A DNA stretch of 64,000 bases from Herbiconiux moechotypicola (lineage in GTDB: Bacteria > Actinomycetota > Actinomycetes > Actinomycetales > Microbacteriaceae), in NCBI RefSeq assembly GCF_024979255.1, contig NZ_JANLCN010000006.1, positions 124,001-188,000 of the forward strand. Direction: 5' to 3'. Below, one piece after another: positions 54,046 through 61,999 of the stretch. The translations under genes were made by a program, and so were the position numbers. Numbering within the stretch: position 1 is the stretch's first letter; every line of letters starts with the position of its first letter. The notes below the pieces were generated by a model that did no database searches, was not told the DNA's origin, and saw nothing but the letters and a program-made list of their open reading frames with translations.

Positions 54046-55881
54046 ATGGCGCAGAAATCCGACGGCAGTGCCGACACCAGCACGAACGAGTCCGGCACTG
54101 ACCGCGCCAGCACGACCCGCGCCAGCGCACCCCACACCAGCACACCCCGCACCCGCACACCCCACACCAGCACCGTGGAGATCGAGCGCAAGTACGAGGT
54201 GGAGGCCGGAACCCCGCTGCCGACCCTCGACCTGAGCGCCCTTCCCGGACTCGCCTCCGCCGGCACCGGCGCGATCGCCGCGGGCGCGCCCACGCTCGAG
54301 CAGCTCGAGGCCGTGCAGCTCGAGGCCGTCTACTTCGACACGCCCGATGCGGCCCTCGCCCGCGCCCGCGTCGCGCTGCGACGGCGGGTGGGCGGCCACG
54401 ACGAGGGCTGGCACCTCAAGCTGCCGGCCGTCGAGGGCCGCCGTGAGCTGCAGTGGCCGCTCGGCGACGGCGCACCCGGACTGGTCCCCGACGAGGTGCT
54501 CGACCAGGTGCGGGTGCACGTGCGCGACCGCCCCGTCACCCCGCTGGCGCGCATCTCGACCTCGCGCCGCGTGACCCTCGTCCGAGACGCCGACGGAGGC
54601 CTCGTGCTCGAGGTCGCCGACGACGCGGTGTCGACCGCCGACCTCCGGGGCGGCACGGAGCGCTCCTGGCGCGAGTGGGAGGCCGAGCTCGGTGCCGCGG
54701 CACCCGGAACCCGCGACCAGCGCGCGGAGCTTCTCGACGCCGTGGAGCGGCAGCTGCTCGCGGCAGGAGCTCGAGTGTCGCCGAGCGTGTCGAAGCTCGC
54801 CCAGGCCCTCGGCCGCACCGGACTCGGGCGCACCGAACCGGGCACCACCGCGCCCGGTCGCCCGGAGTCCTCGCCGGATGCCGTCACCCCGGCGGAGGCC
54901 GCACCCGCACCCCACACCTCCGATCCCGCCGCCGACATCGCCGCCCGCGCCGCCGATCCCGCCGCCGTACGGGTGCGCGCCGGGATCGCGGCGCTGGTGG
55001 CCCGCATGATCGAGCTCGATCCCGAGGCCCGTGCCGACCGGCCCGACGCGGTGCACGAGTACCGCGGCACCGTGCGGCGGTTGCGCACCGCTCTCGCCGT
55101 GCACCGGGGGCTCTTCGACGCCGACGAGGTGGACACCCAGCGCGACTCCCTCGCCCGGCTCGGGGCAGCGCTCGGCGAGGTGCGCGACCTCGAGGTGCGT
55201 GCGGCGTGGGCCGCGCACGCCCTCGACCAGCTCGAAAGCGATCGCGGCGTCGACGATCCGGATGCGCGACGCCGCCTGGTCGACCAGACCCGCGCCGAGC
55301 ACGACGAGGCGCACCGCCGGCTCGTCGCCACACTCGGCCGGGTGCCCTACTTCCGCCTCCTCGACGGACTGGAGCGCTTCGTCGCGGACGCGGTGCCCGG
55401 AGAACCGCCGGTGAAGGGCGGGAAAGCGACTCGCCGCGCCGCCAAGAGAGAGGCCAGGCGCACCCTGGCGCGCGAGGGCCGCCGCGCACTCCGGCGGGCC
55501 GCGGCGGGTGCGCACGCCCGCAAACACCTCGACGGCGATGCCTCCGAGTCGGCGGTCGCCCTCGCCACGCTGCACGCCTCGCGCACCGGCGCCCGGCGAC
55601 TGCGGCAGGCGGCCGAGTTCGACACCGAGGGCCCCGCGGCCGTTCTCGGCGGGTCGGCCGAGCGCACCGCCGCCGCGGCAGAGGCCTTGCAGGATGCGCT
55701 CGGCGAGCATCGCGACGCCGCGCTCTTCGCCGAGTTCGTGCTGCTCACCTCGCGCCGGGCCGACGCGGAGGGGGAGTCGAGCTTCACCTACGGCGTGCTC
55801 TACCAGCGGGCGATCGATCAGGCCGAACGAGCCCTCGACGTGGCCGACGAGGCTCGGGAGGCGCTGGCCCGCGCAGTCTGA
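54046..55881 (+). CDS. CYTH-CHAD domain protein
   Basis: 611 residues. A low-complexity Thr/Pro/His lead of about 45 residues is followed by a CYTH domain (VEIERKYEV ExExK motif, later WHLKLP and SRRVTLVRD). After an Ala/Pro linker comes the helical, His- and Arg-rich CHAD domain (DAVHEYRGTVRRLRTALAVHRGLF, KHLDGDASESAVALATLHASRTGARRLRQAAEF). CYTH binds triphosphates and CHAD binds polyphosphate. GGGAG precedes the ATG. The protein is cytoplasmic and linked to polyphosphate metabolism. Confidence 0.92.
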   Translation: MAQKSDGSADTSTNESGTDRASTTRASAPHTSTPRTRTPHTSTVEIERKYEVEAGTPLPTLDLSALPGLASAGTGAIAAGAPTLEQLEAVQLEAVYFDTPDAALARARVALRRRVGGHDEGWHLKLPAVEGRRELQWPLGDGAPGLVPDEVLDQVRVHVRDRPVTPLARISTSRRVTLVRDADGGLVLEVADDAVSTADLRGGTERSWREWEAELGAAAPGTRDQRAELLDAVERQLLAAGARVSPSVSKLAQALGRTGLGRTEPGTTAPGRPESSPDAVTPAEAAPAPHTSDPAADIAARAADPAAVRVRAGIAALVARMIELDPEARADRPDAVHEYRGTVRRLRTALAVHRGLFDADEVDTQRDSLARLGAALGEVRDLEVRAAWAAHALDQLESDRGVDDPDARRRLVDQTRAEHDEAHRRLVATLGRVPYFRLLDGLERFVADAVPGEPPVKGGKATRRAAKREARRTLAREGRRALRRAAAGAHARKHLDGDASESAVALATLHASRTGARRLRQAAEFDTEGPAAVLGGSAERTAAAAEALQDALGEHRDAALFAEFVLLTSRRADAEGESSFTYGVLYQRAIDQAERALDVADEAREALARAV

Positions 55882-56061: not shown

Positions 56062-56649
56062 ATGAACAAGCTCGCCAAGGGCGCCATCGCCGGCGCCGCC
56101 GGCCTCGTCCTCCTCCTCGGCGGCGCAGGTACCTTCGCCTACTGGAACTCGACCGCCGACATCGCCGGTGGCACCATCACCGCGGGCAACCTCCTGGTGG
56201 AGAACACCGGTGGCGCAGGAGTCTGGACCGACCAGAACGGCACCACCATCAACATCGCCACCTACCGCATCGTGCCGGGCGACACCCTCACCTACACCGA
56301 CACCCTCACCGTCACCGCGGTCGGCAACAACCTGGTGGCCGAGCTCGCGCTGGGCCCCGAGTCGATCGCACCGGCCGACGGTGGTGTGCCGGCCGACGTC
56401 GCCCTGGCGGGCTTCCTCGAAGACGGCGCGGTGCTGACCGCGACCGGAACGGGCATCTCGGGCGCGAGCCCGACCTACACCGTCACCGCCGGAACGGCCG
56501 GTGTGAGCTCGGTGGTCACGGTGGCCGTGACCCTCGCGTTCCCCAACGCCAACACCGCCGGTGCCGAGAACACCGCCAAGCTCGGAGCGGTCGACCTCAG
56601 CGACATGACGCTGACGCTCACGCAGACCGCGCCCGCCGTCACTCCGTGA
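56062..56649 (+). CDS. Alternate-type (SipW) signal peptide protein, TasA-like
   Basis: 195 residues. The N-terminus is MNKLAKGAIAGAAGLVLLLGGAGTFAYWNSTADI, with the TFAYWN motif of SipW-dependent signal peptides found on TasA, camelysin and alternate-signal actinobacterial proteins. The mature part is an all-beta Thr/Val/Gly-rich domain (GTITAGNLLVEN, VPGDTLTYTDTLTV) without Cys. It is likely a secreted fibre or surface subunit. AAAGGA precedes the ATG. First gene of a five-gene operon that ends with the signal peptidase. Confidence 0.9.
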   Translation: MNKLAKGAIAGAAGLVLLLGGAGTFAYWNSTADIAGGTITAGNLLVENTGGAGVWTDQNGTTINIATYRIVPGDTLTYTDTLTVTAVGNNLVAELALGPESIAPADGGVPADVALAGFLEDGAVLTATGTGISGASPTYTVTAGTAGVSSVVTVAVTLAFPNANTAGAENTAKLGAVDLSDMTLTLTQTAPAVTP

Positions 56650-56666
56650 CCCCCGGGAGGGGCCGC

Positions 56667-57257
56667 GTGACGGGCACTGCGGGGCGACACGCTCCCACGC
56701 GCCGGCACGCGGCCCCATCCCGCGCGCTCCGCCGCCTCGGGCTCGCCCTCGCCGCTGCCTCGGGCGCGGTGGTGCTCGCGGTCGTCGCGTCGGGCGGCAC
56801 CTACGCGCTGCTCAACTCCAGCGCGACGGTGCCGGGTGCGGTCGTGCGGTCCGGCACGGCCACGCTCGCGGTCACGACGGCCCTGAGCCTGCCCACCACG
56901 GTGCTCTACCCGGGCATCTCCATCTCAGGATCGGCGATCGTGCAGAACACGGGGAACGTGCCGCTGTCACTTCGGATCGCCGGCCTCAGCCGCACGAGCT
57001 CCGCCACCGACTTCGCCTCGTCGCTCACCGTCGGGGTCTCCACGGTCGCCACCTCCGCATCCTGCCCCGCCGTCTCGACCGCGTGGACGGGCACCTTCGC
57101 CTCGGCCACCCCGACCGACCTCTCCGTCCGCCTCGCGCAGAACGGCTCCGTGCGCGTCTGCGTGAGCGTGAGCCTGCCGGTCGGTGCGCCCGCCACCGCC
57201 AACGCGAACGCGGCGACGACGTTCATCCTGAGCCTCGACGGCCGACAGGTCGCCTGA
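56667..57257 (+). CDS. Exported beta-rich protein, SipW-operon member 2
   Basis: 196 residues from GTG 56667, which has GGGAGGGG upstream; a GTG at 56646 overlapping the previous stop is an alternative. An Arg/His-rich n-region and a long hydrophobic stretch (LGLALAAASGAVVLAVVASGGTYALLNSS) give an alternate-type signal with TYALLNSS at the TFAYWNST position. The mature part resembles gene 1 in beta-strand pattern (PGISISGSAIVQNTGNVPLSLRIAGL) and has two Cys residues. A second surface subunit is likely. Confidence 0.75.
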   Translation: MTGTAGRHAPTRRHAAPSRALRRLGLALAAASGAVVLAVVASGGTYALLNSSATVPGAVVRSGTATLAVTTALSLPTTVLYPGISISGSAIVQNTGNVPLSLRIAGLSRTSSATDFASSLTVGVSTVATSASCPAVSTAWTGTFASATPTDLSVRLAQNGSVRVCVSVSLPVGAPATANANAATTFILSLDGRQVA

Positions 57258-57258
57258 C

Positions 57259-58206
57259 ATGCGGCGCACCACCCGACCCGGCCTCTGGCACACCGCCGTG
57301 AAGTGGGCCGTGCTCGCCTTCGTCGCCGTCTTCGCGATCGGGGTCTCCGGGTGGGCCGCGCACGCCTCCTGGACCGCGGCCACCGTCAGCTCGGGCACGG
57401 CGACCGCGAACGCCGCGACCGCCTCGGTGAGCGCCACCGGCACCGCCGCCCTCACGACCACCTACCAGGTGCCCGTGGTGAGCCCCGGCACCAGTGCGAC
57501 GCGCATCGCGCCGATCAGCTTCACTAACACCGGCACGGCGCCACTCACCCTCACGATGGCCATCGCCAACACGAACTCGACCCTCGCGGCCAACATCACG
57601 CTCACCCTGTGGAGCCAGGCGAGCTGCGGCACGACCATCCCGTCGAGCGGCACCGTGGCCGGCACCCTCAACGCCCCGCCGTCACTCCCCTCCGGGGCGG
57701 CGAGCGTCGCGGTGGGGGCCACGGCGACGCTCTGCGTGGCCACCACCCTCGCCACCACGACCGCGGCGTCGCAGGGGCAGACGGTGACCGCGACCCTCAC
57801 GCTGACGGGCCGGGTCGGCACCAACTGGGTCGCCACGTCCACCGCGCCGACCCTCACGCAGAGCGTCTACCGGGTGGCCGATCCCACGCCGATCACCTGT
57901 GTCGACGGAACCGGACTCAACGTCGGCACCGTCACGCTCTCCTGGCCCCAGGTCACCAATGCGAGCCAGTACCGCGTGGTGAAACCGGGCCCCCCGGTCA
58001 CGATCGTGAAGGCCGCCTTTACGCCCGCGAACCCGGCCGCCCCCTCGGTGACGGTGAACGGCACCGAGGCGGGCATCCTGAGTCTCGGCACCATCCCCGT
58101 GCTCGTGCAGTCGATCGACGCCACCTACGGCACCATGTCGGCCGGCACCCAGGTCAACCTGCGGGCGGTCGTCGTGTCGCTGCTCGGGCTGAGGTGCCCG
58201 CTGTGA
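57259..58206 (+). CDS. Exported beta-rich protein, SipW-operon member 3
   Basis: 315 residues; ATG one base after the preceding stop. The signal region WAVLAFVAVFAIGVSGWAAHASWTAATVSSGTATA again ends in an Ala-Ser-Trp-Thr-Ala motif like SipW tags. Two beta-sandwich-like parts follow: the first with SFTNTGTAPLTLTMAIANTNS, the second beginning near residue 215 (ITCVDGTGLNVGTVTLSWPQVTNASQYRVV), which looks fibronectin type III-like. A larger, possibly adhesive or tip subunit is suggested. Confidence 0.75.
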   Translation: MRRTTRPGLWHTAVKWAVLAFVAVFAIGVSGWAAHASWTAATVSSGTATANAATASVSATGTAALTTTYQVPVVSPGTSATRIAPISFTNTGTAPLTLTMAIANTNSTLAANITLTLWSQASCGTTIPSSGTVAGTLNAPPSLPSGAASVAVGATATLCVATTLATTTAASQGQTVTATLTLTGRVGTNWVATSTAPTLTQSVYRVADPTPITCVDGTGLNVGTVTLSWPQVTNASQYRVVKPGPPVTIVKAAFTPANPAAPSVTVNGTEAGILSLGTIPVLVQSIDATYGTMSAGTQVNLRAVVVSLLGLRCPL

Positions 58207-59126
58207 GGCCCTCGGCCCGGATGCGCGCGGCCGGGATGCGCGCGGCCGGAACGCGCGCGGCTTGGACGCACGCGGCCGGGCTGGCGGCGGGCCTCGCCGT
58301 GATGGCGGTGGTGGGTGGAGTCGCCGTCCCTGCAGCGGCATCGGCTGAGATCGTGGGCTCTGTGGGCTCTGTGGGCTCTGCGGGCACGGTGGGGTCCGTG
58401 GGGTCTGCGGGGTCAGCCGGTTCCACCGGATCCGGAGGCGTCGAAGTCAGCGCCGACGGCCACACCTTCACGACCTCGATCGACAGCCCGCTCTTCGCCG
58501 ATCTGCCGGTCGTCGTACCCGGCGACAGCGTGAGCGCCACGCTGTGGGTGCGCAACGGCGGCGTGCAGGCGGGAGCGGTGCGCTTCAGCGCGAGCGACGG
58601 ATGGTCGACGAGCGCCGCCTTCGCCGACCACCTTCTGGTGTCGGCGTCGCCGAGCGACCCGGTGGTGGCCCCCGGCGCGGAAGTGCCGCTCGGCTCCGTC
58701 GACGAGTGCGCGCTGCTGTTCGCCGGACCGGTGCTGCAGCCCGGCGAGAGCATCCCTCTCCTCGTCACGCTGGCCTTCGCGCCGACCGTCGGCGGCCGGG
58801 ACGGTGCCGGCGCGCGGGCCGGTCTCGACTTCGTCGCCGCCCTGCGCGATCCCGCCGACCCGGCCTCGCCGACCGCCGACTGCTCGGGTGGGACCGTCAT
58901 CCCGGGCATCCCCGACTCGGGCGACGGGGGCAGCGTGCCGCGCGCGGATGCGATCGCCGCCACGGGTCTGGTGCCGATCGGCGCCGCGATGCTCGGGGCG
59001 ATCGTGCTGGTGGCCGGGATCGCCCTGTTCGCCTCGGGCCGACGGCGCTCGCCGCGGGACGCGAGGGAATGGGAGCGCAGCGAGGTCGCCGAGACGGGCG
59101 GCAGTCACGACAGGGGCGCGACGTGA
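58203..59126 (+). CDS. Exported protein with IAATG-type anchor, SipW-operon member 4
   Basis: 307 residues, GTG overlapping the previous stop. The n-region is a triple MRAAG-type repeat, the signal helix ends near PAAASA. A Gly-Ser-Val repeat region of about 28 residues precedes a beta domain (GHTFTTSIDSPLFADLPVVVPGDSVSATLWVRNGG). The C-terminus has IAATG, a hydrophobic helix and SGRRRSPR, a variant of the LAxTG wall-anchor signal. It could be the base that ties the assembled structure to the wall. Confidence 0.75.
   Translation: MRPSARMRAAGMRAAGTRAAWTHAAGLAAGLAVMAVVGGVAVPAAASAEIVGSVGSVGSAGTVGSVGSAGSAGSTGSGGVEVSADGHTFTTSIDSPLFADLPVVVPGDSVSATLWVRNGGVQAGAVRFSASDGWSTSAAFADHLLVSASPSDPVVAPGAEVPLGSVDECALLFAGPVLQPGESIPLLVTLAFAPTVGGRDGAGARAGLDFVAALRDPADPASPTADCSGGTVIPGIPDSGDGGSVPRADAIAATGLVPIGAAMLGAIVLVAGIALFASGRRRSPRDAREWERSEVAETGGSHDRGAT
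58353..58430 (+). repeat. 9-bp tandem repeat encoding GSV/GSA
   Basis: About eight degenerate copies of GTGGGCTCT encode a Gly-Ser-(Val/Ala/Thr) linker just after the signal peptide of operon member 4. Confidence 0.75.
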
Positions 59127-59767
59127 CCACCACCGCCCTCCGCGAGGGGCGCCACCGTGCCGCGACCGGCCCGCACGCCCCGAAACCTCTGCAGCACGTG
59201 GGCCTCCCCGCCGCAGGAGCGAGTCTGCTGCACTACCTGGCCGTGAGCCTCAGCGCCGCCGCCCTCATCCTGGTTCTGCTGCTCGCGGTCGCCACCGTGC
59301 TCGTCCCCGCGGCCGTCGGCGGACGCCCGCTCACCGTGCTCACCCAGTCGATGGAACCGACCCTCCCGCCCGGCACCCTCGTGATCGTGCGGCCCGAGGC
59401 GGCAGCCGACATCCGCCTCGGCGACGTGCTCACCTACCAGCTGGTGTCGGGGGAGCCGGCCGTGGTGAGCCACCGCGTCGTGGGGAAGACGGTCTCCACC
59501 GACGGCTCCACCACCTTCGTCACGCGGGGCGACAACAACGACGTCGCCGACGAGAAGCCGGTCCAGGAGGTGCAGATCGTGGGCACGGTCTGGTACAGCG
59601 TGCCCCTGCTCGGGTGGGTGAACACCGCCGTGAACGGGGAGGCGCGCGGCGTCATCGTGCCCGTCGCCGTGGCGCTGCTGTTCGGCTACGCGGGCTGGAC
59701 CGTGCTCTCGACGGTTCTCGAACGACGGCGGCGACGACGAGAGCGGCCCGTCACCCTGCCCGTCTGA
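59123..59767 (+). CDS. sipW: SipW-type (S26B) signal peptidase I
   Basis: 214 residues. One N-terminal and one C-terminal membrane helix flank a peptidase S26B domain. The nucleophile is Ser76 in LTQSMEPTLPPGTLVIV, and the general base position is His117 in VSHRVVG, the archaeal/ER/SipW pattern, rather than the Lys of ordinary LepB. The GDNN box (RGDNNDVADEKPV) is present. GTG 59123 overlaps the gene 4 stop (GTGA). It should process the alternate-type signals of the upstream proteins. Confidence 0.93.
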   Translation: MTTTALREGRHRAATGPHAPKPLQHVGLPAAGASLLHYLAVSLSAAALILVLLLAVATVLVPAAVGGRPLTVLTQSMEPTLPPGTLVIVRPEAAADIRLGDVLTYQLVSGEPAVVSHRVVGKTVSTDGSTTFVTRGDNNDVADEKPVQEVQIVGTVWYSVPLLGWVNTAVNGEARGVIVPVAVALLFGYAGWTVLSTVLERRRRRRERPVTLPV

Positions 59768-59824: not shown

Positions 59825-61999
59825 ATGAAGTCGTCCCTCCGTCACGACGTGCAGGGACTCCGTGCCCTCGCCGTCGCCGCCGTCATCCTCTGTCACGTCA
59901 CCGGCTGGCCGCGCGGCGGCTTCGCGGGGGTCGACGTGTTCTTCGTCGTCTCCGGGTTCCTCATCACCGGTCTCCTGCTGCGCGAGGCCGACGACACGGG
60001 CCGGGTGTCGCTCGGCGCCTTCGCCCTGCGCAGATTGAAGCGCATCGCTCCGGCATCGCTGCTCGTCATCGCCGCCACCCTCGCCGCGGCCTGGTTCCTG
60101 TTCAACCAGGCGCGCTTCGCGTCGACCCTCGCCGACGGCGTCTCGGCCGTGCTGCTCGTGTCGAACTGGCGCTTCGCCCTCGAGGGCACCGACTACTTCG
60201 CGTCGGAGGCGGCGGTGTCGCCGCTGCAGCACCTCTGGTCGCTCTCGGTCGAGGAGCAGTTCTACCTCGTGCTGCCCCTCGTGGTGCTGGCGGTGGTCGC
60301 GCTCACTGCGCCGGTGCGGGATGCTCGCGGCCGGCGGCGGGCACGGGGTGTGGCGCTCGGTGCGGTGGTCGGGATGCTCGTGGCCGCGTCGTTCGGGTTC
60401 GCCCTGTGGCAGAGCGCGTCGGCGCCCACGGTCGCCTACTTCTCCACCCTCACGCGCGTGTGGGAGCTCGGAGCGGGCGCGCTGCTCGCCGTCGTGGCCC
60501 CGGCGGTCGCCTGGGTGTTCGGTCGCGTCGGCACGGCGGGGCGAGCCGTCGTCGGCTGGGCGGGGTTCGCGGGCGTGGTCGCGTCGTTCGTGCTGCTCGA
60601 CGAGACGGTGCCGTTCCCGGGCCCGTGGGCGCTCGCGCCCGTTCTCGCGACCCTGGCCGTGCTGGCGGCCGGCATCGGCGCATCCGCTCACCGCTACCTG
60701 CTGCCGATCGCCAACCCGGTCACGACGGCGGTCGGCACCCTGTCGTACTCGCTGTACCTGTGGCACTTTCCCGTGCTCGTGTTCCTTGTCATGCTGCTCC
60801 CGGCCGGCACGCAGACGACGCTCATCGTGCTGGGGGTGACCGTGGTGGTGTCGGTGCTCGGCTACCTGCTGGTCGAGCAGCCGCTGCACCGGATGCCCGT
60901 GGGGCCGTCGAGGGTGCGGCTCGACCGGGGCGACGCCGCGGAGCGATGGGTGGCGTGGCGCGAGCGCTTCGGTGCCCAGGTGATGCTCTCGGGCGCGGCG
61001 CTCGTGGTGGTGGTGATCGCCTCGACCGTCGTGGTGCAGCTGGCGCTCAAGGGGGAGGGACCGCTCCAGCTGGCCTCGCCCGCCCAGGCCGTGCCCGCAT
61101 CCGGTGCGGGGTCGGGTGCGGGCGGCGCGGCGCCCGCTCCAGCCGAGAACCCCGAGGTCGCGCTGCAGGCGGAGCTCTGGGCGGCGGCCTCGGCGACGGC
61201 CTGGCCCACCGATCTCTCGCCCTCGCTCGATGCAGCGATCGCGGAGACCTCGAGCCGCAATCCGGCGGCGGGTTGCTTCGACGTGGGGTCGACTCCGGAT
61301 GCGTCGGCCTGCACCTGGGGGAGCGGCGACGCCCCGCACCGGCTCGTGCTCGTGGGCGACTCGACGGCGCTCGCCTACGCTCCGGCGTTCCGGCGGATCG
61401 CCGACGACAGCGGTGGGCAGTGGCGGGTAACCGCCGTGGGGCTCTACGGCTGCCGGTTCACGACGGTCGACGTGCAGAACGACGGTGCCGGTGTGACCGA
61501 GGCCTGCCCGCAGCGGAAGGCCGATGTGGCGGCGATGGTGCGAGACCTGCAGCCCGATCTGGTGGTGGTCTCGAACGCCTTCGCGCTCGGTACGAGCACC
61601 GCCCGGCAGCCGCTCGGAGTGGGCGATCTCGTCTCGGCGACCCTGGCCGAGACCGCGCAGTACGGTCTGCCCGGCCGTGTCGTCTACCTCGCGCCTCCGC
61701 CGCTCGGGGCCGACCTCGGCACGTGCTACTCGCCCGTCAAGAGTCCGCAGGACTGCAACGCGGGTATCGACCAGACCTGGTACGACTTCGAGTCGGCCAC
61801 GGAGGCGGCCGTCGCCGCGGCGGGCACCGGCGACCATGTTGTGGGATCGCTCGGCTTCAGTTGCGCGGAAGGCTATTGCCCGGCGTTCGCGGGCACGGTG
61901 CCCACCAAGTACGACAGCGTGCACATCACGCCGGAGTATGCGGAGCGGATCGCCTCCTCGATCCGGTGGGAGCTGGTGCAGCAGGGGTTGATGCAGTAA
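59825..61999 (+). CDS. Membrane acyltransferase with C-terminal SGNH domain (OatA-like)
   Basis: 724 residues. Acyltransferase-3 domain with about ten helices: HDVQGLRALAVAAVILCH, GFAGVDVFFVVSGFLITG, LQHLWSLSVEEQFYLVLPL. A linker of about 60 Ala/Pro-rich residues leads to an extracytoplasmic SGNH hydrolase domain with Ser513 in LVGDSTALAY and Asp697-x2-His700 in YDSVHIT. Such proteins O-acetylate peptidoglycan or surface polysaccharide. TATGAT lies 9 bases before the ATG. It follows the SipW operon terminator, so it is a separate unit. Confidence 0.92.
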   Translation: MKSSLRHDVQGLRALAVAAVILCHVTGWPRGGFAGVDVFFVVSGFLITGLLLREADDTGRVSLGAFALRRLKRIAPASLLVIAATLAAAWFLFNQARFASTLADGVSAVLLVSNWRFALEGTDYFASEAAVSPLQHLWSLSVEEQFYLVLPLVVLAVVALTAPVRDARGRRRARGVALGAVVGMLVAASFGFALWQSASAPTVAYFSTLTRVWELGAGALLAVVAPAVAWVFGRVGTAGRAVVGWAGFAGVVASFVLLDETVPFPGPWALAPVLATLAVLAAGIGASAHRYLLPIANPVTTAVGTLSYSLYLWHFPVLVFLVMLLPAGTQTTLIVLGVTVVVSVLGYLLVEQPLHRMPVGPSRVRLDRGDAAERWVAWRERFGAQVMLSGAALVVVVIASTVVVQLALKGEGPLQLASPAQAVPASGAGSGAGGAAPAPAENPEVALQAELWAAASATAWPTDLSPSLDAAIAETSSRNPAAGCFDVGSTPDASACTWGSGDAPHRLVLVGDSTALAYAPAFRRIADDSGGQWRVTAVGLYGCRFTTVDVQNDGAGVTEACPQRKADVAAMVRDLQPDLVVVSNAFALGTSTARQPLGVGDLVSATLAETAQYGLPGRVVYLAPPPLGADLGTCYSPVKSPQDCNAGIDQTWYDFESATEAAVAAAGTGDHVVGSLGFSCAEGYCPAFAGTVPTKYDSVHITPEYAERIASSIRWELVQQGLMQ

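Follow-up and report, generated by a model that had tools for sequence, protein, structure and literature searches.

A candidate TasA-type fibre operon with its own SipW-like signal peptidase in Herbiconiux moechotypicola and related Microbacteriaceae

A five-gene operon conserved in Microbacteriaceae

Five linked genes, here called g1 to g5, lie on the forward strand at 56062-59767 of a 64,000-nucleotide stretch of the genome of Herbiconiux moechotypicola (assembly GCF_024979255.1, contig NZ_JANLCN010000006.1, positions 124,001 to 188,000; hereafter the window, to which all coordinates refer). Based on their sequences, we propose that the product of this operon is probably a fibre on the cell surface or in the matrix, a distant relative within the TasA superfamily of the fibres by which Bacillus biofilms are held together. 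It would have its own SipW-type signal peptidase (g5), with g3 as the head and g4 as the anchored base. An earlier note on this DNA had suggested a self-contained fibre or surface-layer system, an idea that is supported by the co-conservation of the genes and by profile ties to TasA and camelysin, the formation of a fibre being the part that we infer. The five tightly linked genes it described, with gaps of 17 bases (g1-g2) and 1 base (g2-g3) followed by two GTGA overlaps (at 58203 and 59123), were all found again on re-reading the sequence, as were the motifs it quoted. It had missed that g4 has the same domain as the other exported proteins, that the ends of g3 are exchangeable, that the g4 signal is of the AxA type, and that the g1 family already bears a name.

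This five-gene arrangement is not a product of chance, since gene order and linkage recur across genera. The main scan for relatives kept the best 80 of 192 (79 loci) and thus leans towards close relatives: they are mostly Microbacteriaceae (Herbiconiux, Cryobacterium, Microbacterium, Curtobacterium, Clavibacter, Salinibacterium, Naasia, Schumannella, Leifsonia and others), together with one Rarobacter and one Arachnia, and the nearest g1 relatives, up to 77% identical, are those of Herbiconiux. Seventy-four of the 79 loci parse as g1-g2 operons, with g2 present in 74, g3 in 65, g4 in 44, g5 in 71 and all five genes in 37; the three operons without g5 (L117, L122, L148) run to contig ends. The five loci left out (L118, L129, L136, L143, L155) have no g2 next after g1 within 2200 bases, and four of these still show g2 and g5. 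Gaps of at most 20 bases were counted for g2-g3 in 65/65 cases, g3-g4 in 34/36, g4-g5 in 41/44, g3-g5 in 20/26 and g1-g2 in 21/74, counts that lean towards linkage as start codons were picked partly by their closeness to the upstream stop; stop positions and gene order are independent of this choice. Variants of the order occur (for example g1-g2-g5-g4 and g5-g1-g1). Co-conservation, which had been named beforehand as one of three points on which the idea of a common system could fail, was thus found. A separate set of 55 stretches, window included, has g5 in 53, and one of the two stretches without it (L061) runs to a contig end.

The same association is seen at the level of genomes. TIGR04089, the family of g1, was detected in 53 of 120 genomes of the family and TIGR02228, that of g5, in 87 of 120; the peptidase is found in 51 of the 53 genomes with TIGR04089 versus 36 of the 67 others (Fisher p 7e-8). 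Both genomes with TIGR04089 and without TIGR02228 are draft assemblies, one in 190 contigs (90% complete) and the other in 290 (66% complete), and a genome of the same genus as the window (G093) has neither family. In a phylum-wide draw, TIGR04089 was matched at E<=0.001 in 5 of 296 genomes, two of them over the cut-off, both in the window's family.

Two further observations concern these loci. Four Cryobacterium loci (L116, L119, L121, L134) carry two consecutive g1/g5 sets, which suggests parallel systems in one genome. Glycogen genes, named from their translations, lie near the operon in some relatives (glgP-like in 16 of 80 stretches, glgE-like in 19 of 80, both in 13 loci: L096, L100, L104, L127, L141, L149-L152, L157, L158, L161 and L166); the window shows neither, and we therefore leave this linkage as an observation.

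A domain shared by the exported proteins and its relation to TasA

With signals removed, the profile of the mature g2 domain matches those of g1 (E 2.5e-8), of the N-terminal domain of g3 (5.8e-16) and of g4 (4.3e-10; g4 was cut at residue 78 for this purpose, so that the comparison says nothing of its extreme N-terminus). For each of four pairs, none of 40 column-shuffled controls reached the real score, and profile comparisons with g5 and with the C-terminal domain of g3 were null. All four exported proteins thus share a domain, joined through the g2 profile.

When the g2 profile was compared with 177,635 PDB sequences, its best four matches were AbpX, twice, and TasA (5OF1, 8AUR), with E values of 0.038-0.06; each of them is marginal alone, and their weight lies in four of four coming from one superfamily. 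The alignment of g2 to TasA takes in the SG-x-L strand and the PG turn; a second stretch, at the C-terminal T-Q strand, stays below the threshold. Mature g2 scored 19.2 bits against the TasA N-terminus, its best shuffle reaching 5.6 (0 of 2540 scored shuffles as high), and the g3 profile 4.5 bits (0 of 1781); 3000 shuffles were made per profile, for which 2926 (g1), 2540 (g2) and 1781 (g3) scores were returned. Among the relatives, PF12389 is matched at E<=0.01 by 25/54 g2 (best 7.3e-8) and 10/62 g1, TIGR04090 (BsaA) at the same threshold by 10/54 g2, and the TasA model by 5/54 g2. The g2 of the window itself reaches 10.2 bits on NF046066 (TasA), below the cut-off of 450, and a genome-wide scan for PF12389 gave no match at E<=0.001. 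Collectively, these comparisons strongly suggest that g2 belongs to the TasA/camelysin superfamily in a wider sense, and indirectly, through g2, they place g1, the N-terminal domain of g3 and g4 in it as well. No TapA-named family occurs among the library matches of the five proteins, the presence of a usable TapA model in these libraries not having been checked.

PF12389 is named 'Peptidase_M73', and its weak matches in g1 and g2 of the window, stronger in relatives, might be taken to indicate a secreted camelysin-like protease system. We regard this as very improbable: in the window the matches cover only the N-terminal part of the proteins (residues 2-49 of g1 and 23-98 of g2), g1 has no histidine and mature g2 none either, which leaves no HExxH motif, and TasA itself is held to derive from camelysin metalloproteinases (PMC9674648).

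SipW-type signals, a presumed donor arm and the peptidase

The family of g1 is already named by NCBIfam, without a function: g1 matches TIGR04089 (exp_by_SipW_III) over its full length (146.3 bits, cut-off 60, model positions 1-179 of 179) and the signal model TIGR04088 with 35.3 bits (cut-off 19). In library scans, no family over its cut-off was found for g2, g3 and g4 of the window. The earlier note had read SipW-type signal endings in three proteins, and this reading stands in part: the motifs are present and g1 passes the signal model, whereas g2 of the window stays below the cut-off (13.1 versus 19 bits) and g3 matches no signal family. TIGR04088 is nevertheless matched at E<=0.01 by 12 of the 54 aligned g2, and the A-x-W/L motif of g2 and g3 becomes clear only in family alignments.

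These alignments (the window plus 61 of 74 relatives for g1, 53 of 74 for g2 and 37 of 44 for g4, the 300-residue class of g3 being aligned apart, n=32) display a constant pattern at the presumed cut. The g1 signal ends in A26-Y-W28; A26, W28, G42 and L44 are invariant in 62/62 aligned g1, and position 39 is always aliphatic (I, V or L). The residue two places after the alanine is W or L in 52/54 g2, and A-x-W is found in 32/32 g3 of the 300-residue class. From this alanine to the glycine of the SG-x-L strand there are 16-17 residues, as counted in alignment columns, in 59/62 g1 and 53/54 g2. In the TasA fibre, each subunit inserts its residues 28-38 into the one that follows, hydrophobic contacts being provided by F29, I32 and F39 (PMC9674648), and 8AUR carries these three residues at those places if its first residue is 28. 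If TasA is cut after residue 27, its SG-x-L glycine lies at a distance of 15, close to the 16-17 of g1 and g2. We infer that the invariant tryptophan may have two functions, contributing to the cut site and serving as the first anchor for a donor strand.

The near-fixed spacing also bears on whether these proteins polymerise at all. They could be monomeric adhesins exported by SipW, or form an S-layer-like coat, using the TasA fold but building no donor-strand fibres. TasA is soluble and stable as a monomer (PMC9674648), and a fibre of an actinobacterial member does not appear among the literature matches listed; yet a plain mature N-terminus would not need so constant a distance between A-x-W/L and SG-x-L, and we consider such a non-polymerising coat improbable.

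The signal peptidase with a Ser-His dyad that the earlier note had recognized is borne out by the family searches. On its profile scores, g5 is SipW-like without being the Bacillus equivalog: it matches TIGR02228 with 87.1 bits (cut-off 51.85) and NF046067, the SipW equivalog of bacilli, with 67.2 bits, below the cut-off of 190. The presumed nucleophile and general base (Table 1) are conserved in an alignment of 70 g5 (the window plus 69 of 71 relatives, two short ones omitted). In the whole genome, given as 99.89% complete, g5 is the sole match to TIGR02228 and g1 the sole match to TIGR04088 over the cut-off; apart from g1, only g2 matches TIGR04088 at E<=1.

A putative head and a putative base

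The signal of g4 is of the ordinary AxA type, assigned by a rule of thumb, and lies close to the first strand of the domain: from the last AxA to the conserved serine of this strand there are at most 8 residues in 26/38 and at most 10 in 31/38 g4. For this reason g4 looks like an acceptor without an arm. Some copies, including that of the window, have a linker before the first strand; in the window, a Gly/Ser-rich stretch of low complexity at 58356-58439, near the presumed mature start and with weak HxsA4 and collagen matches, is probably such a linker. At the other end, an [LIVM][APS]xTG pattern occurs within the last 75 residues of 31/45 g4, one match (VSNTG in L152) being doubtful and the window entering this count through VAETG, its last match, which lies past the hydrophobic stretch; IAATG, ahead of that stretch, fits the pattern too. 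Sorting-signal models are matched at E<=0.01 by g4 relatives as LAVTG (16/38), LAXTG (7) and LPXTG (7). Two sortases are encoded on other contigs, one of class E (234.9 bits, cut-off 160) and another with 53.4 bits on the class E model, and the terms 'class E sortase' and 'LAXTG' both occur in the abstract of PMC5148588; a sortase may act on some of these tails. Taken together, the sequence features make an anchored base the probable role of g4.

The C-terminal end of g3 is variable. In the window it is Fn3-like, as seen with the profile of its class, g3 alone matching no Pfam family. Among 67 proteins in the g3 position (the window, 64 of 65 g3 and two long proteins, L131 and L135, labelled g2 in parsing), Pfam finds ricin-type lectin domains (PF14200 in 28, PF00652 in 27), at the C-terminal end in many relatives, and fn3 in 22. 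CDtoxinA is also matched by 4 of the 67, which most likely reflects the common ricin-type beta-trefoil fold rather than a toxin. Evolutionary rates, expressed as nonsynonymous over synonymous change (dN/dS), are rough here as synonymous differences are large (pS 0.36-0.59): g3 gave 0.49, 0.96 and 0.72 in three genus-group comparisons and was the highest gene in two, g4 exceeding it in the third (L091); five comparisons gave 0.25-0.54 for g1, 0.34-0.52 for g2, 0.45-0.61 for g4 and 0.29-0.40 for g5. We see in g3 a probable head or starter of the fibre. Three operons (L090, L092, L144) run g1-g2-g4-g5 without room for g3; the head protein would therefore be a module that is gained and lost.

Weighing the fibre reading

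Several results weigh against the proposed fibre with head and base. On the side of the shared domain, the direct profile comparisons of g1 with g4 (30%) and of the g3 N-terminal domain with g4 (8.8%) are weak, and that of g1 with the g3 N-terminal domain is null (0.7%). Mature g1 scores 4.1 bits against TasA, with 10 of 2926 scored shuffles as good or better, and two g1 profiles found no TasA structure in the PDB (one had no match at E<=10, the other four unrelated ones), so that g1 is tied to TasA via g2 and the PF12389 matches of relatives; in the window, g1 (14.2 bits) and g2 (15.3 bits) are both below the PF12389 cut-off of 22.5. The spacing of the arm to the first strand is not established in g3. 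As regards the peptidase, L044 has a g1 without g5 within the 13 kb fetched (L045, a further locus of its source genome G008, does carry g5), and a TIGR02228 peptidase also occurs in 36 of the 67 genomes that lack TIGR04089, which implies that this family has other clients too. Finally, g3 is absent from two Herbiconiux operons (L090, L092), and g4 was not found in 27 of the 71 g5-bearing operons (Microbacterium, Curtobacterium, Clavibacter and others). The wall-anchor-like IAATG tail pointed out in the earlier note does exist as a motif, and xTG patterns are frequent among g4 relatives; the remaining 14/45 g4 show a plain membrane-type tail or a near-miss, and the window's g4 matches no sorting-signal model. 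Wall anchoring is therefore not general.

These absences of g4, and in a few operons of g3, are what one would expect if the operon produced a released matrix fibre akin to those of TasA or BsaA, co-polymerised from g1 and g2, with g3 (a lectin) and g4 (an anchored receptor) being surface proteins of the same superfamily that are co-expressed without serving as head and base. Such an organization has parallels in the mixed TasA/CalY filaments of Bacillus cereus, a sortase-independent system (PMC13082335), and in BsaA of Clostridium perfringens, which polymerises alone when made in Escherichia coli and needs SipW for export (PMC7395162). Yet g3 and g4 have the subunit domain and sit between the fibre genes and the peptidase gene, and g4 mostly lacks an arm, as an end subunit would. 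We consider a released fibre of this kind rather unlikely, and retain the fibre with a head and an anchored base as our preferred interpretation.

Feature positions and neighbouring genes

The features discussed above are collected in Table 1. An alternative in-frame GTG for g2 lies at 56646, from which g2 would overlap g1 by GTGA; this start was the one taken in operon parsing. The start at 56667 is preceded by GGGAGGGG. Upstream of the operon lies a gene for a CYTH/CHAD-like protein (54046-55881) and downstream one for an OafA-like acyltransferase (59825-61999), both named from their translations without a family search. A scan from 56062 to the next gene start at 59825 found no promoter-like site and no forward-strand terminator-like site, which is uninformative at this high guanine-plus-cytosine content.

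Table 1. Positions of the operon genes and of the features within them, in window coordinates.
Feature	Position	Strand	Description or basis
g1	56062-56649	+	195 residues; TFAYWNST; TIGR04089; no cysteine
g1 signal segment to presumed SipW cut after Ala26	56062-56139	+	TIGR04088; A26, W28, G42 in 62/62
g1 Trp28-Ala41, presumed donor arm into SG-x-L strand	56143-56184	+	A-to-G spacing; TasA analogy
g2	56667-57257	+	GTG start; 196 residues; TYALLNSS; two conserved cysteines
g3	57259-58206	+	315 residues; HASWTAAT; TasA-like N-domain and Fn3-like C-domain
g3 Fn3-like C-terminal domain, approximate limits	57874-58203	+	class profile versus Fn3 structures, best E 1.8e-4, profile positions 190-285
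g4	58203-59126	+	GTG start; 307 residues; TasA-like domain, AxA signal, sorting-type tail
IAATG motif before g4 C-terminal hydrophobic segment	58953-58967	+	sequence; followed by hydrophobic stretch and GRRR
g5	59123-59767	+	214 residues; SipW-like (endoplasmic reticulum-type) signal peptidase; TIGR02228
Ser76 codon, presumed nucleophile (S-M-x-P)	59348-59350	+	same in 70/70 aligned g5
His117 codon, presumed general base (H-R)	59471-59473	+	same in 69/70 aligned g5

Discussion

Under our proposal, the Sec pathway would export g1, g2 and g3, with g1 as the main subunit and g2 as a second or adaptor subunit. The peptidase g5 would cut all three just before the x-W/L of their A-x-W/L motif, and the cut would free a hydrophobic N-terminal arm able to enter, as a donor strand, the groove of the next subunit, as in TasA. 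With its arm motif and C-terminal head, g3 would start the fibre and end up outermost as a binding head, and g4, which has the acceptor domain and mostly no room for an arm, would receive the final donor strand and tether the fibre to the membrane or wall. In Bacillus subtilis, TapA has been proposed as the source of the first donor strand (PMC9674648), and g3 would therefore be a TapA-like starter with a head. A more specific version of this scheme, which we put forward tentatively, is a complete donor-strand pilus in which g4 is an acceptor-only anchored base, g1 and g2 form the shaft, g3 is a donor-first head with interchangeable Fn3 or lectin domains, and the SipW cut primes the strands. 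In chaperone-usher pili, the tip accepts a strand and does not donate one; the polarity of the pilus proposed here would, if true, be the reverse.

The operon resembles tapA-sipW-tasA of B. subtilis in its SipW-type peptidase gene, its SipW-type signals and a subunit related by profile. It differs in having the peptidase gene last rather than in the middle, in its two small subunits, in the modular Fn3/lectin protein and in a TasA-like protein with an ordinary signal and a sorting-type tail, and the window proteins are below the PF12389 and TasA cut-offs. The sipW-tasA/calY/CapP system of B. cereus is described as having two TasA-superfamily subunits that co-assemble with the wall-associated CapP, besides SipW (PMC13082335); there, however, CapP has a transcript of its own and no sortase is said to be needed, whereas g4 is in the operon and has a sorting-type tail. 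The sipW-bsaA genes of C. perfringens (TIGR04090) likewise encode a polymer-forming protein exported via SipW, with a different gene content and order, and the available part of PMC7395162 describes no lectin head or same-fold anchored subunit. Archaeal threads, too, use donor strands, after a cut by signal peptidase I (PMC9715654), and the archaeal filament protein AbpX (PDB 9SJ2, 9RHP) provides two of the four best structural matches of g2, a similarity that is remote and marginal (E about 0.04). The NCBIfam models TIGR04089 and TIGR04088 cover g1, which is a full-length member of the former; the name gives no function, and g2, g3 and g4 of the window are outside the TIGR04089 model. Among the literature matches listed, which come from open-licence papers, there is no actinobacterial SipW-TasA fibre system, which is no proof of absence.

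Fibres of the TasA type are known from Bacillus, with related fibres in clostridia and archaea. The operon would extend this range to actinobacteria, in one family of which its g1 family is found in 53 of 120 sampled genomes, roughly half. If our proposal is true, these bacteria have a system whose anchor is encoded in the operon and whose head is exchangeable and often binds sugars; it would offer a simple genetic approach to the beginning, the end and the attachment of such fibres.

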